Shown: positions 31,977-64,000 of the stretch, piece by piece
Numbering within the stretch: position 1 is the first letter of the stretch
Layout: each line of letters opens with the position of its first letter
DNA from: Gymnorhina tibicen
Taxonomy: Eukaryota; Chordata; Aves; Passeriformes; Artamidae
Reading direction: 5' to 3'
Assembly: GCA_013399875.1 (NCBI GenBank)
Contig: VXAZ01006790.1
Span: 248,001 to 312,000, forward strand
Length of the DNA: 64,000 bases
Notes under the pieces: generated by a model
Told to the model about the DNA's origin: nothing
The model's database searches: none
Seen by the model: only the letters and a program-made list of their open reading frames with translations
Translations under genes and position numbers: made by a program

Positions 31977-32236
31977 CTCAAAGGGACAGAAAGCTAGGAA
32001 AGTTAAGATTTCTCTTTGACCAGTTGATGTCTGTGGTTAACTGTGTCCAGGAACGAGATTTTGGGACATGATGAAAGTGCTCTGAAGGGCAGAGATGAGG
32101 AGCGATATCAGGCTGCAAGCCTGAAAACCCACAAAAACTGGGAAGAGCAAGGCCGGTGTTGCATGCCTCTGCATCCTGCAGCATCCCATGGGCTGGGCTT
32201 GGTTCAGGACCTGCAGTGGTTTTAAACTGACAGTGA

Positions 32237-32462
32237 GTAGGTTTAGATTGGATATTGGGACAAAATTCGTGGCTGTGGGGGTAGTGAGGCCCTGGCACAG
32301 GTTGCCCAGAGAAGCTGTGGCTGCCCTATCCCTGAAGTGTTCCAGACCAGGTTGGATGGGGCTTGGAGAATATAGTGGAAGGCGCCCCTGCCCATGGCAG
32401 GGGGTGGAATGGGATGAACTTTAAGGTTCCTTCCAACCTAATCCATTCTGGGATTCTATGTC
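32237..32462 (+). mobile_element. CR1 LINE 3' end
   Basis: It starts again at GGTTTAGATTGGATATTGG, so it is a separate insertion from the piece at 31915. It runs through GTGAGGCCCTGGCACAGGTT to CATTCTGGGATTCTATG. Confidence 0.9.
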
Positions 32463-32789
32463 AAGAGCAAAATGCAAGTCAGAAACGTGCTCCCCAGGTG
32501 ACCACATGCTTTCGTTCTAAGCCTGCTATCACAAACAGCCAAGCTTAAAGGAGTTACTTAATCCTTCTAGGATCTCCTGTTCTGCAGGAGGCTGAAGCCC
32601 TAACACACATAAAGGGCCATACACGTGATGGAAGCACTGATGAACTTTACTGATGCTGTTTGGGTGGAGATCTCCCTCTGCTTTCTGGAAAACACTGTTT
32701 GGCCTTCTTATCTTGGCACGGTGAGATGCACTCGGACACGGACACCGCATCCAGGATGACACTGGGATGGCAGAGGCTCAGTCCTTGGG

Positions 32790-33780
32790 CCCCGTGGGGG
32801 GGTGCTGGATGCCCCGGCAGCTGTGGAGGCTGGTGCCGGCACCCCTTCGGGTGTGGGGGCTGCGGGTGTACGTTCCGGCGCTCCGGGCGGGCCCGGCCGG
32901 GGACGGGCTAAGGGCGGGGGGGGGGTGGGNNNNNNNNNNNNNNNNNNNNNNNNNNNNNNNNNNNNNNNNNNNNNNNNNNNNNNNNNNNNNNNNNNNNNNN
33001 NNNNNNNNNNNNNNNNNNNNNNNNNNNNNNNNNNNNNNNNNNNNNNNNNNNNNNNNNNNNNNNNNNNNNNNNNNNNNNNNNNNNNNNNNNNNNNNNNNNN
33101 NNNNNNNNNNNNNNNNNNNNNNNNNNNNNNNNNNNNNNNNNNNNNNNNNNNNNNNNNNNNNNNNNNNNNNNNNNNNNNNNNNNNNNNNNNNNNNNNNNNN
33201 NNNNNNNNNNNNNNNNNNNNNNNNNNNNNNNNNNNNNNNNNNNNNNNNNNNNNNNNNNNNNNNNNNNNNNNNNNNNNNNNNNNNNNNNNNNNNNNNNNNN
33301 NNNNNNNNNNNNNNNNNNNNNNNNNNNNNNNNNNNNNNNNNNNNNNNNNNNNNNNNNNNNNNNNNNNNNNNNNNNNNNNNNNNNNNNNNNNNNNNNNNNN
33401 NNNNNNNNNNNNNNNNNNNNGGCGTCGAGGCCATTGTGGGGGGGTGGCGGTACCGCGGGAAGTTTGGCCCCGGCCACCCGACCCGCCGGCAGCTCCCCAG
33501 CGGGACCGGCCGCCCGGCACGGCGCCTGTCCCGGCCGCTCGGGGCCGCGGGGAGCGGGGGAGCTGGGAATCCCCTGTGCCCGGCACCCGCTGCTGTTGGG
33601 GGGGCTTGGCCGCCCTGCCCTTCTCCCGGTGCCCCCGGGCCGCCGCCGTGCTCCTCCGGCGTCGCCTGGTCCGGCCGCCCCCGGCACCGCCGCCCGCCCT
33701 CTGCAGTGGGGAGGCGGCGCGTCCTTGGAGAGCAGCTCGGGCGTGAAACGCGGCTGCACATCCCAGCACCTTTCCTTCCC
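32790..33780 (+). promoter_or_regulatory. ADARB1: CpG island with assembly gap: probable main ADARB1 promoter and first exon
   Basis: Both sides of the gap (32930-33420) are extremely GC- and CpG-rich, with runs such as GGCCCGGCCGGGGACGGG on the left and many CCGGC/GCCGC motifs on the right, in a window that is otherwise CpG-poor. It is the only strong CpG island here outside the solo LTR. It lies between the end of SLX9 and the ADARB1 coding exons, where a TATA-less housekeeping-type promoter for ADARB1 is expected. The first exon and its donor cannot be placed; CAG|GTGAGG at 34056/34057 is one good donor candidate. Assignment to ADARB1 rests on position only. Confidence 0.5.
32930..33420. 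other. Assembly gap of 491 N inside the CpG island
   Basis: Unsequenced bases flanked by very GC-rich sequence and a poly-G run on the left, typical of a region that failed to sequence. The size may be an estimate. Long open frames reported across it are artefacts of the N run. Confidence 0.97.
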
Positions 33781-34181
33781 AGCTGGATAACCCCCCAGAG
33801 CCCTTTTCCATCTGTTGCTGTGGCCCCTGGTGGGTTTCGTTGTTCCTTTGGGATTTGGTTCGATTTGTGCTGTGCTGGAGCAAAACTGCAGTCGTGAGAT
33901 CTGTGACTGTGCTTTTAAAAGTCTGGTTTGCTTAAAAAAAACAGAAGCAAAAGGCTTCTGAAGGGTGCCTGTATGGTGCCTGGTGACCGAGGGATACCAC
34001 TGGCCTGGGCCACCCCTGCTCTCTGCCCATCTTCACCTTGTACTTCTCAGGACTCAGGTGAGGGAAGCACTGGTCATGCCAGAGAGGGTCTACAGAGCAT
34101 TCAGGACTCTGCACTCAGGCTGGTGAAACCACAGAATTGATGGATGAACCACTATCAGCCATGCTGGTCCTTGGCCTGGGC

Positions 34182-56849: not shown

Positions 56850-56857
56850 TATAAATA
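56850..56857 (+). promoter_or_regulatory. ADARB1: TATA-like box, possible alternative ADARB1 promoter
   Basis: TATAAATA lies 388 bases before the first ATG of the upstream coding exon. A GC-box-like GGGGGCGAGG at 57185-57194 lies closer. The mammalian extended form is reported to use its own promoter, which makes a promoter here plausible. TATA-like strings are common in AT-rich introns, so this is weak. Confidence 0.22.
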
Positions 56858-57237
56858 TTTCCTTGCTTATGTCTCTCCTTGTTTCTGAGCTACAGGACTG
56901 AAGAGTTGCCCTCCTTTATTAATAACAAAATAAAATTAATTGTGCCTTTCCACACCTAGCAGTGAGGATGTCTTTGATCTAGTCCTTCTAGGAGAACTGT
57001 CCTTCCTTGCCCCTTCTGTGTGACAAAGGGTTAATTGCCACATGTGCCTCTGGCAGTGGGTAGGGGCGAGCTGCATCCTTCACTCATCTTTGTTCACTGG
57101 ACTGTGCATTGGTGTGCTCCAGGGTTCCAGGGGCTGGGTAGAGAGAGCATTCCTTTTGGGAATACATTGCTGCCGCTTTGGGGAGGGGGCGAGGGGTCGC
57201 ACAGGCAGTCAAAAGGTGCATGGCATAACGTCAAGCC

Positions 57238-57319
57238 ATGGCTCTGGGCATGGGGACCCTCTGCAGCACGGCCGGATTGCGCTGGAAACGAAGGAGGACG
57301 AAACGATCTGAGAGGAAAG
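57238..57319 (+). CDS. ADARB1: ADARB1 upstream coding exon: R-domain N-terminal extension (ADAR2R-type)
   Basis: From ATG 57238 (context GCCATGG, a strong start) the frame reads MALGMGTLCSTAGL, then WKRRRTKRSERK, to a donor AAAG|GTAGGG at 57319/57320. The single leftover G joins AC at the start of the 61215 exon to give Asp, so the product continues KRSERKD-RSSLRQPRNQHRYFT-MDVDD with no stop. The extension before the canonical Met is 43 residues, or 39 from the second ATG at 57250. The basic cluster closely matches the ADAR3 R domain (KRRRRRRSKRKDK), a single-stranded-RNA-binding element. Mammals have an ADAR2 splice form with such an extension from an upstream exon. An in-frame TAA at 57226-57228 limits the frame upstream. 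The 5' edge of the exon, and whether it is a first or internal exon, cannot be fixed. A local rise in CpG fits conserved coding sequence. Confidence 0.78.
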
Positions 57320-59147
57320 GTAGGGCTTGAATTGCTACATTTAATTGCTGAAACAAAGGAGTTGGTGGAGGGGTGGTGGTGGTGTTGTGAACATAGTTTT
57401 CAGGTGAGGTTTGAACCTCTTTGCTAAGTGCGACTTCAGTGTTTGCACTTTGGATTCATAAGAAATCCAGCTTATCAGAAATATTTTGAGCAAGAACCAT
57501 TTCCCAATGTTTTATTTTACTTGGCTTTCAAAGGACTTTGGAAGGAGAGGACTTTTTAACAAATATGAAACTTCTCTAAAACTGCAGCTTTCTGACTTAC
57601 ACTGTTTTCTAATAGTTCTGTGTCATCTGTCAGGTTAATGGGATTTTTTGCATACATGCCATTTGCTGAATGTAGAGCATTGTTACCTGCTAATTCTCCT
57701 TTTCAAGACATATTTAGGTTTTCTCTCAGTCATGAGAATAAACTAAGATAACTCTTAAGGTCTTTCACAACTCTTTTTTGCATGCAGTCGATTCCTAGGA
57801 TATTCTAACAGCAGAAATACAGGTTATCTCTAAGTCCTCATGTGATGTGTACTTGCTATAGCTGACATTTACTTAAAAATCTCTCAAGTAGTCTCCTGTG
57901 AAAATAAAGGCAAATTCTGTTGTGTTGGCTGCTGCATTTTTAAGTACTTCCGATGTTCTTCCTATCTTTGAAATACTCTACAGGAATTAAAGACTTCAAA
58001 ACCAGGAGAGGATTAAAAGTGTACTTTCTCCTGGCTCCAATTAAATTAGCATACATTTAGATATTGTTTTCCTGTTTGATATGGCTGGCTTTTAATGCAT
58101 CTAGGAAAAGAAAGGTTTTTGTAGTCAGAACACTTCAGGTGTGCTGCTATGCAGAATCGCTTGGCTTTGGTGAGTGAATTTAGGTAAGAGCTGGGTGGAG
58201 GTTTGTTGCTCTGTGTTATGAACAAAAAACTCCCCTCTGCTATATCAGCATAGTGCAGTCAAACCCTCAATTTATTTTATCAGTATACCTGAGAGCAAAC
58301 AGTCCCTGCAGCCACGGAGCCAGCTTCTACCACAGCCCCATTCCACAGAGAACGTGCTGTGAATACACTGACCCAAATCACTTCATATTTATGGCAGTTA
58401 TTCCTGGTTTTGAAAGTTTTGTTAATCTCTGAACAGCAATTAAGCTTTTTCCTTTACTCTTACATTTTCTTTTCCCAAATAAAAGTTTTTTCCAGTACTG
58501 AGAATGTTATTGTAGTTGTGTCCCTTATCCCAGAGCAGGATTTTAGGAACAAAACTTGAGAGTTTATCATACCTTGGTGTCCAAGGCAGATGCACAGCTT
58601 CAGTGAAGTCCTTTTGGAAGGTGTCCTTGCTCAGATGCCACTGACCATTGCCCAACCTCGTGTGGAGGTTTTGTGTCTGTAGGACCTGAGATGTTCCTGG
58701 ATATCAGTTGCTAAATGGGTTATTTACAGGCAGTGAATGTGTTTATTAATGCAGTTTTGCTGCTTGAATAAAAGTTTGGAAGGTCAAAGAAGTCAGAAAT
58801 GCTGTTTCTTCTTCAAAGTGAAATGCTAACTGAATCACTAATGATTTCAGAAGTAATCAAGCATGCCTTGGCAAGAGAGGAAGCTTTTTTTGTAGTGAGC
58901 AGCCCGGGCTCAGAGTCCATTTTGTGGAAAAAATCTCCCCTCTCTTTCTGAAAGCATACACAGGTCCTATTTTATATGGAAGGACTTTGAAAAACCTTTT
59001 TTCTTATTAGCAAATCCTCTACATTTGAAAGCCAGGTGGAAAAAAAAATCCATGGATTACAGTGGGAGGAAGTTTGGAAGATAAATGTGTATACAGAGTA
59101 CTGAGTTCATTCTTTCTGCGCAGCTGAGTACTGTCTCCTACACATTA

Positions 59148-59305
59148 TTCATAGGATCATACAATGTTAAGGGGTTGGAATGGACCTTAAAGATCATCCA
59201 GTCCCAACTGTGGGCAGGGACACCTCCCCCTAGACCAGGTTGCTCAAGTCCTTATCCATCCTGGCTTTGAACAGTGCTGGGGTTGGGGCATCCACAACAT
59301 TTCAT
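59148..59305 (-). mobile_element. CR1 LINE 3' end, reverse orientation
   Basis: ATAGGATCATACAATGTTAA, CTTAAAGATCATCCAGTCCC, AGACCAGGTTGCTCAAGTCC: the reverse CR1 3' end. Confidence 0.88.
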
Positions 59306-59444
59306 ACTGTTTAAATATCTAATTCATTCTCTTCCAAGTATTTTTGACTTGAAGTGGGTGGTTGTTAGAAATTAGTTGTAATGGAAATAGTTACTTGTAT
59401 AAAACACACACAGTCTTGTAGTGATGTGCTTAGAATAAGAGAGG

Positions 59445-59612
59445 CTTAGCAGGCTGCCGTAGGAAGTGGTGGAATCACCATCCCTGGAGTTGCTCAGGAA
59501 ACAAATAGACATGGCATTTCATGCTTTGGTTTAGTGGGCATTGCTCTTACTCAGTCAAAGGTCGGACTTGATCTTGAAGGTTTGAAGTCAGTGGTTCTGT
59601 GGCTCTTACATT
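59445..59612 (+). mobile_element. CR1 LINE 3' fragment
   Basis: GGAATCACCATCCCTGGAGT, GACATGGCATTTCATGCTTT and a diverged 3' end. Confidence 0.78.
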
Positions 59613-60329
59613 CTTTACCAGAGTGATCTGCCGGTGCAGTTGTGGGGACTGGAGAGAGCAGCTGAGCGCTGCTAACTGTACTCATGTATTTTTTTTATAA
59701 AGAAAGGATTAGGAAAAAAGGCGATCATTCTTGATATGCCAAGAGTAGTCTAACTCTTAAATACATATGGTTAAAGCTTAAAACAGAGAGCTTAGTGTCA
59801 TTTGGCTGCATTAATACTGTAGGGAGTGTATCTCTTAGGTACCTTAGGGCTCTTCTGTCAACTGTCCTCGGCTGTTTATCTTCCTTGATGCTTCCAGAAT
59901 CTGTTTTAGCAGAGTTACTGAACTTATTTAAAAAAAAAATAATTATGCAGATATTTATGCAAGTGGAGTTTCTGTTTGCCTTTGCTTTTAGCAGAGAGGA
60001 GCTTGCCTTTTCTCTCCTCCAGGCTGTGGGGTGAGCTGCTGAACCGAGGCTGATAACCCAGCTTCTCAGGAGGGTTTATCCATGGTGTGGAAGTGTGGGG
60101 CAGCTCTACAGTCTTTTTCACTTCTGGCTTGGCTCAGGGAGCTCACTCATCACCTTGGTAGGAGTTAAACCAGGAATTGTTCAAGTCTTTTGTCCTTGAG
60201 TACAAAGTGGTGCTGCAGGAGTAACTGGAGCAGGTGTGATGTGCTAATTAAGGTGATAATTATTTACAAGTCCTGTTGATTACAGTCAACTAATTTCCTC
60301 TTGTTACAGTGGAGTGTGCTGATGTTGTG

Positions 60330-61010
60330 TAATGCAAACTGTCTCAGGGGTTGGGCCCAATGGGTTATAGTGGATGGGGTGACATCAGGTGTGTGTTCAG
60401 TCACTACTGGGGTTCCACAGGGCTCCATCCTTGTCCCTGTGCTTTTCAACATCTTCATAAATAGCCTGGAGGCAGGAATCAAAGGAATACTAAATAAGTT
60501 TGCTGCTGATACTAAATTGGAAAGAGCTGTTGACTCACTCAAGGGTAGAGGGGCCCTGTAGAGAGGCCTTGACAAATTTGAGGGCTGGGCAGTCACTAAC
60601 CATAAGAAGTTTAATACGGGCAAGTGCTGGATTCTGCACCTGGGGTGTGTGTATAGACCAGGAAATGAGAGGCTGGAGAGCAGTGCTGTGGAAAGGGACC
60701 TGTGGGGGTCCTGGTTGATGGCAAGTTGAGTAGGAGTCAGCAGTGCCCTGGCAGCCAGGAGGGACATCAGGCACAGCATCCCCAGCTGGGCAAGGGAGGA
60801 GATTGTCCCGCTTTGCTCTGGGCTGGTGTGGCCTCATCTTGAGTCCTAGGGACTACAATATAAAAAAGACATGAAGCTATTAGAGATTGTCCAAAGGAGG
60901 CTGCAAAGAAAATGAAAAGTCTGGAGGGGAAGCCATAGGAGGAGCAGCTGAGGGCACTTGGCTTGTTGAGCCTGGAGGAGGCTGCAGGGAGACCTCACTG
61001 TGGTCTTTGT
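60330..61010 (+). mobile_element. CR1 LINE fragment with end of reverse transcriptase ORF
   Basis: The longest CR1 copy. Its left part still reads as reverse transcriptase: TTGVPQGSILVPVLFNIFIN, then GILNKFAADTKLERAVDSLK. This corresponds to the RT palm region, in which the conserved catalytic motif is usually FADD; here the first Asp is replaced by Ala (FAAD). The frame stops at TAG in the segment after LKGRGAL (about 60559). Downstream blocks continue into the CR1 3' region. The copy is dead and 5'-truncated. Confidence 0.9.
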
Positions 61011-61214
61011 CATCCCACTCTGGCCTTCGACAGACTGGGGCTGCATCTTTCAGTCACTGACGATCATCTCAGTTTTAGGAGGGATCTTTCGTCAGGATTT
61101 ACCCAAACAGTCCAGTGCCAAGCCAGGGCCTAGGCTGCTGCTTTTAAAGGATATTTAATACTTTACCTTATAAATTGGTACCTTAAAGCCTAAATATCCC
61201 TCCTTGTTTTCCAG

Positions 61215-61289
61215 ACAGAAGCAGTCTCCGGCAGCCAAGAAACCAGCACAGATATTTCACAATGGATGTAGACGATGAAGAAAACATGA
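61215..61289 (+). CDS. ADARB1: ADARB1 start-codon exon (double-stranded RNA adenosine deaminase 2, first codons)
   Basis: The acceptor CTTGTTTTCCAG ends at 61214. ATG at 61262 starts MDVDDEENM plus one base, before the donor A|GTAAGA at 61290. This is the N-terminus of ADAR2 (human MDIEDEENM, followed by Ser; the carried-over A is the first base of a Ser codon). ADAR2 is the nuclear enzyme that converts adenosine to inosine in double-stranded RNA, including the glutamate-receptor Q/R site. Its two dsRNA-binding domains and deaminase domain lie in exons right of the window. The 47 bases before the ATG are open in the same frame (RSSLRQPRNQHRYFT), so they can be 5'UTR or coding depending on the upstream exon used. 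Confidence 0.93.
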
Positions 61290-64000
61290 GTAAGATGTGT
61301 TTATTTATATAGTAATAAACTCTGTAATAGTTTCTGAAGGTGATTTTTTTCTCCCAAGCACAGGGGCAACTGCAAAGAAACTTTGGATGCAGAAATGAAA
61401 ATACTTTAAAATGCAGTGAAGAAGAGTGAATTGGAGCTTTTGCATTAACAGTGTTTTAAATATGCTAATATAGTATACCTTCTGTATTATACTTTATACC
61501 TTATATTTTTCTCACAGCAGCTGACTAATCAAATAAAATATTTCCCTGTTTTGAGCCAGCAGTGAAGAAGGGAGGGATAATATCAGTAGTGCCCATGCCA
61601 AGGGTTAACTACCGGTAAGGAGTGAGATGAAGGGGCTGGAGTCGAAGAGTATAATATGAAGGAGGGAAAGCAGAAACAGAGGAAGGAAAAGGCAAAAAAG
61701 GAGCTGGAAAAGCTCTCCGCAGGTCTCACATAGGTTGATTATTCTCTTTAGATGCTGGTTGTCCCAACCCATAGCTACTGAATTATTAAAGTGATTTTAA
61801 AGCACAGAAATAGTCAAATAAAGTGATCATCTTGATGCATACTTCATACAGCCAAGTGTGTGAGACTGCTAACTCTTGGGTATAATTAAGATCTTTCCGA
61901 TAACTTGTGAGAAAAGTGTTCTCATTAAACCATTCTAAAATATTTTTACTGTTATTTGCCTTTCAGCTATCTATTTTTTTTTTGTGACTCAAGACAATTG
62001 TTCTGTTGCTGCTGTGCTGTGCCTGACTGTAAATAATTGTATATTATGTTATAACAAATGTGCTTCTTTTTCCCCCAAGTGACAGTGACTAAAGAATGCA
62101 TCTGGCAAAGGTGACAAAGCCCAGCAATTGCTTTGGAGCAGAAGAGTTGTAGTTCAGTCTGGAGGAGTTACAGAACAATTTTAGAGGGAGATGAGGAAGT
62201 TAGATCATTGTGTTAAAATAAACCAAACAAACCCAAAACAAACATCCTCCCCCTCACCCCACCAAAAAAAAACCAAAACCAAAGCAAAAATTATTACGTG
62301 AAATAGAATTAATATTTTTTCCTTAGTGAAACAGTGAACTCAACTGGAATATGCTTGGTGTAATTTTCTTTTCCTTGACATATAAGAAATTGCTTCAAAT
62401 GGATGTTTTAGCTGTTTCTAAAAGTGGCCTCCCTAACGAGGCCTTCAAAAAGTAGTGTAATTGGATAATTCACGTAAGTTTTTTTCTGATAAAACATCCT
62501 TTTTCTCAATCATGGTATAGCTGAGCATGAATAGAAGGTGCTTTCCTGAGCTGAAGAAATATAATCTCTTTATAGGGGCATTCTTTAATTCTGTGTCATT
62601 AAACAAAACACTAAATTTTGTCTGCTTCTGGGGTTTTTTTTGTGTGTTAGTGCATCATTATGGGAAACCATTCAAGGAATTTGTCAGGAGTTGTTATTTT
62701 GTCAGGAGCTGGGCTCCATGGAACTGTTTAGGGAATGCATTTGTATAATTTCAGTTTTGAGATGTCAGAACCTTGGCTAAGCCCAGTCCATGTAAAGTGC
62801 AAGATGACCTTCCTGTGTGTGCCCACGCAAACAACATGAATTTGAAATGTTAAATCATTTAATTTTGGGGGGGGGGAGGGAAGGGAGGGAGAAATCAAAG
62901 TTTAAATTGTTAAGTTATTTGCTTTGATTTGTGCAGAGATATGTTTTTTAAACTTTTTATCTCTCTTCACTTTTATATCTCTTAAAATAGTGAAGTAGCA
63001 TATTAGAAGTCACCTACTGAATTTTTTATTATTTTATGTAACTGCATTTGGGGAAAGTTTCTTAAAGGAAAGAAAGGTGGGCTATGCAGTCTTTGTAGCC
63101 TATGGTTGCATAACGAGAATTCCTCTGCAGAAGCCAGAATTAAGATGATTTTTTTTGGTTCAGATGAAATATAAGACAGTGATGATGTCTTACATTAATA
63201 AATTAATATCCCTGACAAACAGTGTTTCAGACTTCAATTTTTAGTGTTTTCCTTCTTTATCAATTGATCATAGAGATGTAACAAGATATTTGGGGAAAGA
63301 TATGGTTATTTAGAATGTTTTTATTTGTTTTCTGTTGCTTTGCATGGCTGGTGTGTCTGCATCACTTTGAACACTTGAGACACAAGCATGTGACTCTCCT
63401 GACCTTTCTCTTTGATCTGTTTGCTCCTTTTTCTAAAAGATGCTCAGAAGAGAGCATGTGGTTTTTTCTGCTTGTTTTTTAATGAAAAAAATTACTTATT
63501 TAGAATTTCCCCCAGCCACTAAATGAGAGCAGCAGTATAAGGGGTAGCTAGAACCATCTTTTGGTTCAGCTATGAGTCATCTAAATTTAATTAATTGTGT
63601 TACAGACCAGACAGAGCAGGGGGAGTGTTGTCTCTCAGCAAGCAGGTCCCCAACGGATCAAGTATCTTAATGGCAGACACTTTTTAATGACAGGGAATAA
63701 ACCCAAAAATAAGCCAGCACATCCAGACGGAAGATTTATTTCTTTCCTGGCATGATAAATTCCCCGTGCCTCTTTCCTGCTTCGAGTGTTCTTGGGTTTG
63801 TAAGCACTCATATGAGATCTGGGGACAGGACTGTCCTTCAACTGAAGTTGTTGGTGTCAGCTATGATTTTTACTAAGGTGGCTTCCACAGGCATCAATCA
63901 ACTCTCTATTTGAAGCTGCCATCTTTTTTTAATGACTAGAAAATACACTAATCTCATGAAAAATGTCCCATTTTTAAATCATGGATTGTATAAATGTTTA
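61290..64000 (+). other. ADARB1: ADARB1 intron after the start-codon exon
   Basis: AT-rich intron to the window edge. No further coding exon was recognised; the next one, with the first dsRNA-binding domain, would be expected downstream. It contains an A/C-rich stretch at 62221-62289 and a G-rich run at 62867-62892. Confidence 0.65.

Follow-up and report, generated by a model that had tools for sequence, protein, structure and literature searches.

Predicted exon 0 of ADARB1 in a bird, orthologue of an alternative first exon that encodes an ADAR2 R-domain motif

The window analyzed here is a stretch of 64,000 nucleotides from a bird contig (C1612:248001-312000, plus strand) belonging to a 1.02-Gb genome, and it includes the 5' portion of ADARB1, with the remainder of the gene lying 3' of it on the same contig. 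The features that bear on this region are as follows, with coordinates given in the window unless another sequence is named.

56850..57237, plus strand: putative promoter and 5' UTR of exon 0, proposed from TATAAATA at 56850 and GC-box-like sites at 57063, 57181 and 57186
57219..57350: CpG-dense patch covering exon 0; three clusters of this kind (at least 6 CpG in 82 bp, the mean being 0.60) occur in 34001-63981
57238..57319, plus strand: coding part of the predicted ADARB1 exon 0, comprising 27 codons and one base, with the motif KRRRTKRSERK and the donor GTAGGG at 57320
61215..61289, plus strand: ADARB1 exon 1, comprising 47 bases and then the usual ATG at 61262 (MDVDDEENM), with the donor GTAAGA at 61290
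L009:3236 onward (C1612 about 315,135), plus strand: ADARB1 exon 2, dsRNA-binding
C1612:325635-342058, plus strand: ADARB1 deaminase-domain exons

The interval 57238-57319, as read from the window, translates to MALGMGTLCSTAGLRWKRRRTKRSERK. Its start codon, the ATG at 57238, stands in the strong context GCCATGG and is preceded 12 bases upstream by an in-frame TAA at 57226, while the 3' boundary reads AAAG/GTAGGG, with 57319 as the last exon base. Lysine and arginine account for nine of the final 14 codons and run directly into the phase-1 junction, the arrangement expected of an R domain of the ADAR3 type. The coordinates, start-codon context and donor given by the first-pass annotation prove exact, and the longer shadow frame that it described over the exon is also present, as an open reading frame of 130 aa at 57035-57427. 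Under approximate or ad hoc splice-site weights, the exon 0 donor falls within the best 1.0% of the 1976 GT sites and the exon 1 acceptor within the best 0.2% of the 2225 AG sites; since the exon 1 donor at 61290 scores poorly under the same weights (-0.27), these ranks serve as supporting evidence only.

Exon 1 is entered through an acceptor junction in which CTTGTTTTCCAG is followed by ACAGAAG at 61215. Joining 57319 to 61215 forms a split codon, G/AC, for aspartate and gives the product MALGMGTLCSTAGLRWKRRRTKRSERK-D-RSSLRQPRNQHRYFT-MDVDDEENM, the two exons together reading MALGMGTLCSTAGLRWKRRRTKRSERKDRSSLRQPRNQHRYFTMDVDDEENM without a stop. The first 47 bases of exon 1 are thereby coding in the exon 0-containing form (ADAR2R), whereas the main form has them as 5' UTR. 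With the usual start at 61262, the N-terminal extension amounts to 43 residues. The frame runs on past exon 1 into exon 2, 3' of the window (SSSSTDIKENRNVDN), and yields the joined product MDVDDEENMSSSSTDIKENRNVDN; the in-frame, stop-free splice previously claimed to reach MDVDD therefore holds and continues into the next exon. Over 311 residues, the product of exon 2 shares 83% identity with human ADAR2 (approximate reference sequence), and two stretches within it match the Pfam dsrm family. Exon 0, exon 1, exon 2 and the deaminase exons lie on one contig and one strand (plus). The gene is ADARB1, and any other genomic context for exon 0 is ruled out by exon 1, exon 2 and the deaminase exons on the same contig and strand. 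The intron between exons 0 and 1 also holds what is presumably a CR1-like retroelement fragment at 60300-61000.

Human reference letters for exon 0 can be taken from the primers and junction probe that Maas and Gommans published in 2009 for exon 0/exon 1 splicing (PMC2626628). The human junction probe consists of 20 bases, 12 from exon 0 and eight from exon 1, and it matches the predicted bird cDNA at 19 of 20 positions (all 12 from exon 0 and seven of the eight from exon 1). When each of the 1824 GT donors from 33.5 to 61.2 kb was joined to 61215, the donor at 57320 scored 19 and the runner-up among the remaining 1,823 scored 16, the exon 1 part of the probe being constant across all donors tried. 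The human reverse primer, which lies wholly in exon 1, agrees with the bird cDNA at 19 of 21 bases. The forward primer, which lies within exon 0, matches at just 14 of 23 bases at the expected place (the best unrelated place in the window, on either strand, reaches 16), so the part of the R motif that it covers has diverged at the DNA level. Translated, these codons read YKRRRKK in human and WKRRRTK in the bird, with three synonymous codon differences; one human lysine is a threonine in the bird, and the human tyrosine is a tryptophan. Between human and mouse, the R domain is reported to be 100% identical at the protein level (PMC2626628).

Across the 20 human-bird codons compared, eight are changed, four of them silently and four with an altered amino acid. 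Path averaging assigns 5.0 silent changes to 11.5 sites and 6.0 amino-acid changes to 48.5 sites, giving a pS of 0.435 and a pN of 0.124 in a small sample from two species, without a significance test and with the partial codons and the unprinted human bases between the forward primer and the probe omitted. Seven of the 20 codons come from the forward primer, whose register presumes that no indel occurred in the few unprinted human bases 5' of the probe. The excess of pS over pN points to the direction expected for a coding exon. The first-pass annotation had proposed examining the exon for synonymous-biased substitution, and the comparison with human bears out such a bias per site, yet half of the changed codons are nonsynonymous.

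With high confidence, the bird interval 57238-57319 is predicted to be orthologous to ADAR2 exon 0, of which it holds the coding part; exon 0 serves ADARB1 as an alternative first exon. The earlier interpretation of this interval as an R-domain exon of ADARB1 is supported by the junction probe, the frame into exon 2 and the 20-codon comparison, and the accompanying claim that birds keep the mammalian exon, 3.9 kb 5' of the start-codon exon, is borne out by the 19/20 match of the human probe at this very join. The bird exon resembles human exon 0 in where it lies in the gene, in the phase of its donor, in the junction sequence and in the CATGG start context, as well as in a basic motif followed by SERKD (in human, SERKD is partly inferred, as the probe starts within the S codon); its surroundings are CpG-rich as in human, but to a modest degree. 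It differs in its distance to exon 1, which is 3.9 kb in the bird and about 18 kb in human, and the predicted extension comprises 43 residues as against 49 in mouse (PMC2626628).

Two explanations would deprive the bird exon of a present function or of homology. The more radical holds that the open frame, the basic run and the GT that joins in phase coincide by accident. Given how short exon 1 is 5' of its usual start codon, an open frame there is nothing rare in itself, but the accident would also have to produce all 12 exon 0 bases of the human probe and a total of 19 of 20, where no other donor exceeds 16. A screen for ATG-initiated frames of 15-60 codons that end at a phase-1 GT and carry at least nine lysine or arginine residues in the last 14 codons returns a single match on the plus strand of 33501-61200, at 57319, none on the minus strand of the same interval and none in 60 Markov-1 controls; because the lysine/arginine threshold was fixed at the observed value, the screen counts as supporting evidence only. 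On the probe match and the Markov-1 controls, a chance frame is rejected, and its probability is negligible. The other explanation, that the interval is a decayed relic derived from exon 0 and no longer transcribed or translated in birds, would account for the low match of the forward-primer region, for the four nonsynonymous codons among the eight changed and, if transcription starts above them, for the upstream ATGs at 56968, 57042 and 57220. Human and bird lineages have been separate for roughly 300 million years. An open frame, a strong start context and a good donor in the right phase are unexpected of such a relic, as is a per-site rate of amino-acid change below the silent rate (0.124 and 0.435 over the 20 codons), and decay of this kind is considered very improbable.

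A further alternative concerns how exon 0 enters the transcript. The segment 57061-57320 contains 11 CpG, with a G+C content of 0.58 and a CpG observed/expected ratio of 0.54, and is among the most CpG-rich 260-bp stretches in 33.5-64 kb. The customary criterion for a CpG island is an observed/expected ratio of 0.6, and the bird patch stays under it. In human, a CpG island of 209 bp overlaps exon 0 in its 5' region, and a separate promoter has been inferred from this (PMC2626628); the bird patch is similarly placed but modest. This location of exon 0 in a local CpG-rich patch, as in human, suggests that the exon has a promoter of its own and is not a splicing accident. The word "cryptic" in the first-pass annotation suits the exon only in respect of its small size. 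The TATAAATA element at 56850 occurs at about background frequency, matches to TATA[AT]A being found about 0.9 times per kb across 34-61 kb. Exon 0 might instead be an internal exon without its own promoter, spliced from an untranslated exon farther 5', in the principal CpG-rich region around 33 kb. Sites resembling acceptors at 56894, 56958, 56961 and 56990 would permit this arrangement, but the CpG-dense patch sits at exon 0 itself, and the alternative is regarded as unlikely, though less so than the two considered above. The protein would be identical in that case, so an internal position is compatible with the identity of the interval as exon 0. The stretch 32001-34000 is rich in G+C and CpG and flanks an assembly gap (N at 32930-33420); of the candidates for the main promoter of ADARB1, it is the strongest.

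Upstream of the predicted exon 0 start codon lies a minimal open reading frame (ATG GCA TAA, 57220-57228), which is in the frame of exon 0 and ends 9 bases 5' of its start codon. A separate out-of-frame ATG at 57042 opens a frame that overlaps the exon 0 start and stops within exon 0 at 57309. Either could dampen the translation of ADAR2R, the ATG at 57042 on the condition that transcription begins above it.

The first description of exon 0 cited here dates from 2009 and covers mammals, platypus among them, and zebrafish, in which the start codon is uncertain owing to a 10-bp deletion (Maas & Gommans, PLoS ONE 4:e4225, PMC2626628). The legend of Figure 3 in that paper names eight species, and birds are absent from this legend. 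The proposal of the first-pass annotation that the R-domain extension predates the bird-mammal split is correct but not new, given the platypus and zebrafish exons and the ADAR3 donor reported in the same paper; the occurrence of exon 0 across vertebrates and its relationship to the R domain of ADAR3 have been in print since 2009. With the general fact already published, the gain lies in a further lineage and in the compactness of the gene. The new elements are the bird orthologue itself, the short 3.9-kb intron, the 43-residue extension and the change of one basic residue relative to the human letters. Among the open-licence papers listed, titles and the openings of abstracts do not name the exon in birds. 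The retention of an ADAR2R exon that is open and rightly phased in a bird supports a function for the isoform.

According to the abstract of the 2009 report, ADAR2R expression is highest in the cerebellum (PMC2626628), a statement echoed in two reviews (PMC11120146, PMC2694175). In the Results section of the same paper, hippocampus leads with 9.6%, colon comes next with 5.0%, and the isoform is described as undetected in liver and lung. The emphasis that the first-pass annotation placed on the cerebellum thus agrees with the abstract but not with the tissues that lead in the Results. Recombinant ADAR2R and ADAR2a are reported to be alike in general deaminase activity (PMC2626628). The R domain of ADAR3 binds single-stranded RNA (PMC4693238) and acts as a nuclear import signal bound by KPNA2 (PMC11120146); the same review states that the importin interaction of the ADAR2 variant differs. 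In the bird, transcripts would begin just 5' of exon 0, from the putative promoter, and 57319 would be spliced to 61215. Exon 1 would then be translated from 5' of the usual start, producing ADAR2R as ADAR2 with 43 additional N-terminal residues that include the basic motif KRRRTKRSERKD. This tail likely works in the manner of the ADAR3 R domain, combining an importin-alpha-binding nuclear import signal with contact to single-stranded RNA, and would shift location and substrate choice while leaving the deaminase itself unchanged. Drawn by analogy with ADAR3, such a role in nuclear import or RNA contact is held to be moderately probable.

The paralogous gene ADARB2, which encodes ADAR3, allows the exon structure to be compared within the same genome. 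Two of its exons can be placed on another contig.

C1621 about 1060260-1060174 (L017:4175-4261), minus strand: ADARB2 exon 1, contained in a 33-residue match of 76% to an approximate ADAR3 reference, the end of which overruns the donor
C1621 about 1052355-1051453, minus strand: ADARB2 dsRNA-binding exon, 51% identical to ADAR2 over 323 columns and 75% to ADAR3 over 76 probe-covered residues (approximate references)

ADARB2 exon 1 starts at the junction of TTCTTCTAG with AAAAACTGAGCATA; its first codon borrows one base from the preceding exon, which makes the boundary phase 1, as in ADARB1 exon 1. At the other end, exon 1 of both genes closes with A/GTAAG and the next exon begins with GT, giving serine (the ADARB2 join being read from the sequence). 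The exon 1 phases of the two bird genes are accordingly the same at both ends. ADAR3 and the predicted bird ADAR2R each have a run of arginine and lysine at the N-terminus right before a phase-1 splice site. The poly-arginine run of human ADAR3 is longer than the ADAR2 R motif. The ADAR3 gene is reported to have the same donor directly 3' of the R domain (PMC2626628). A difference is that ADAR3 is depicted with the R domain in the protein itself (PMC4693238), whereas that of ADAR2 belongs to a minor alternative form.

In the gene from which ADAR2 and ADAR3 both descend, the R exon may have been the usual first coding exon. ADAR3 would have kept it as standard, while the main start of ADAR2 would have shifted to an ATG lying in frame within what had been the second exon, with the R exon kept as a low-level alternative (measured in mammals, and deduced from genomic sequence in birds and fish). 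The exon 1 phases common to bird ADARB1 and ADARB2 fit this history, toward which the balance tips slightly. A candidate R exon of ADARB2 itself is absent from C1621:996800-1204599, where three basic-run matches occur on the ADARB2 strand, none with a well-placed donor; the scan of this interval also returned a lysine-rich simple repeat on the strand opposite ADARB2. The exon would be expected beyond C1621:1204599, on the minus strand. A protein search of the whole genome with the 53-residue bird sequence recovers the two exons it derives from and nothing else below E 0.8, followed by three further matches at E 0.9-5.6 on contigs other than that of ADARB2. Searches with the 52-53-residue N-terminus gave 0 matches in PDB and nothing useful in Pfam, where one match (E 0.22) failed the cut-off, and relatives in viral contigs, and in phages for the 320 bases around exon 0, are absent, as expected for vertebrate DNA. 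Bird ADARB2 exon 1 also contains an in-frame ATG, in the context CCACCATGG, that opens the reading MEDEDNLS two codons from the usual ADAR2 start position; judged from this sequence, ADAR3 could in principle start there as well.
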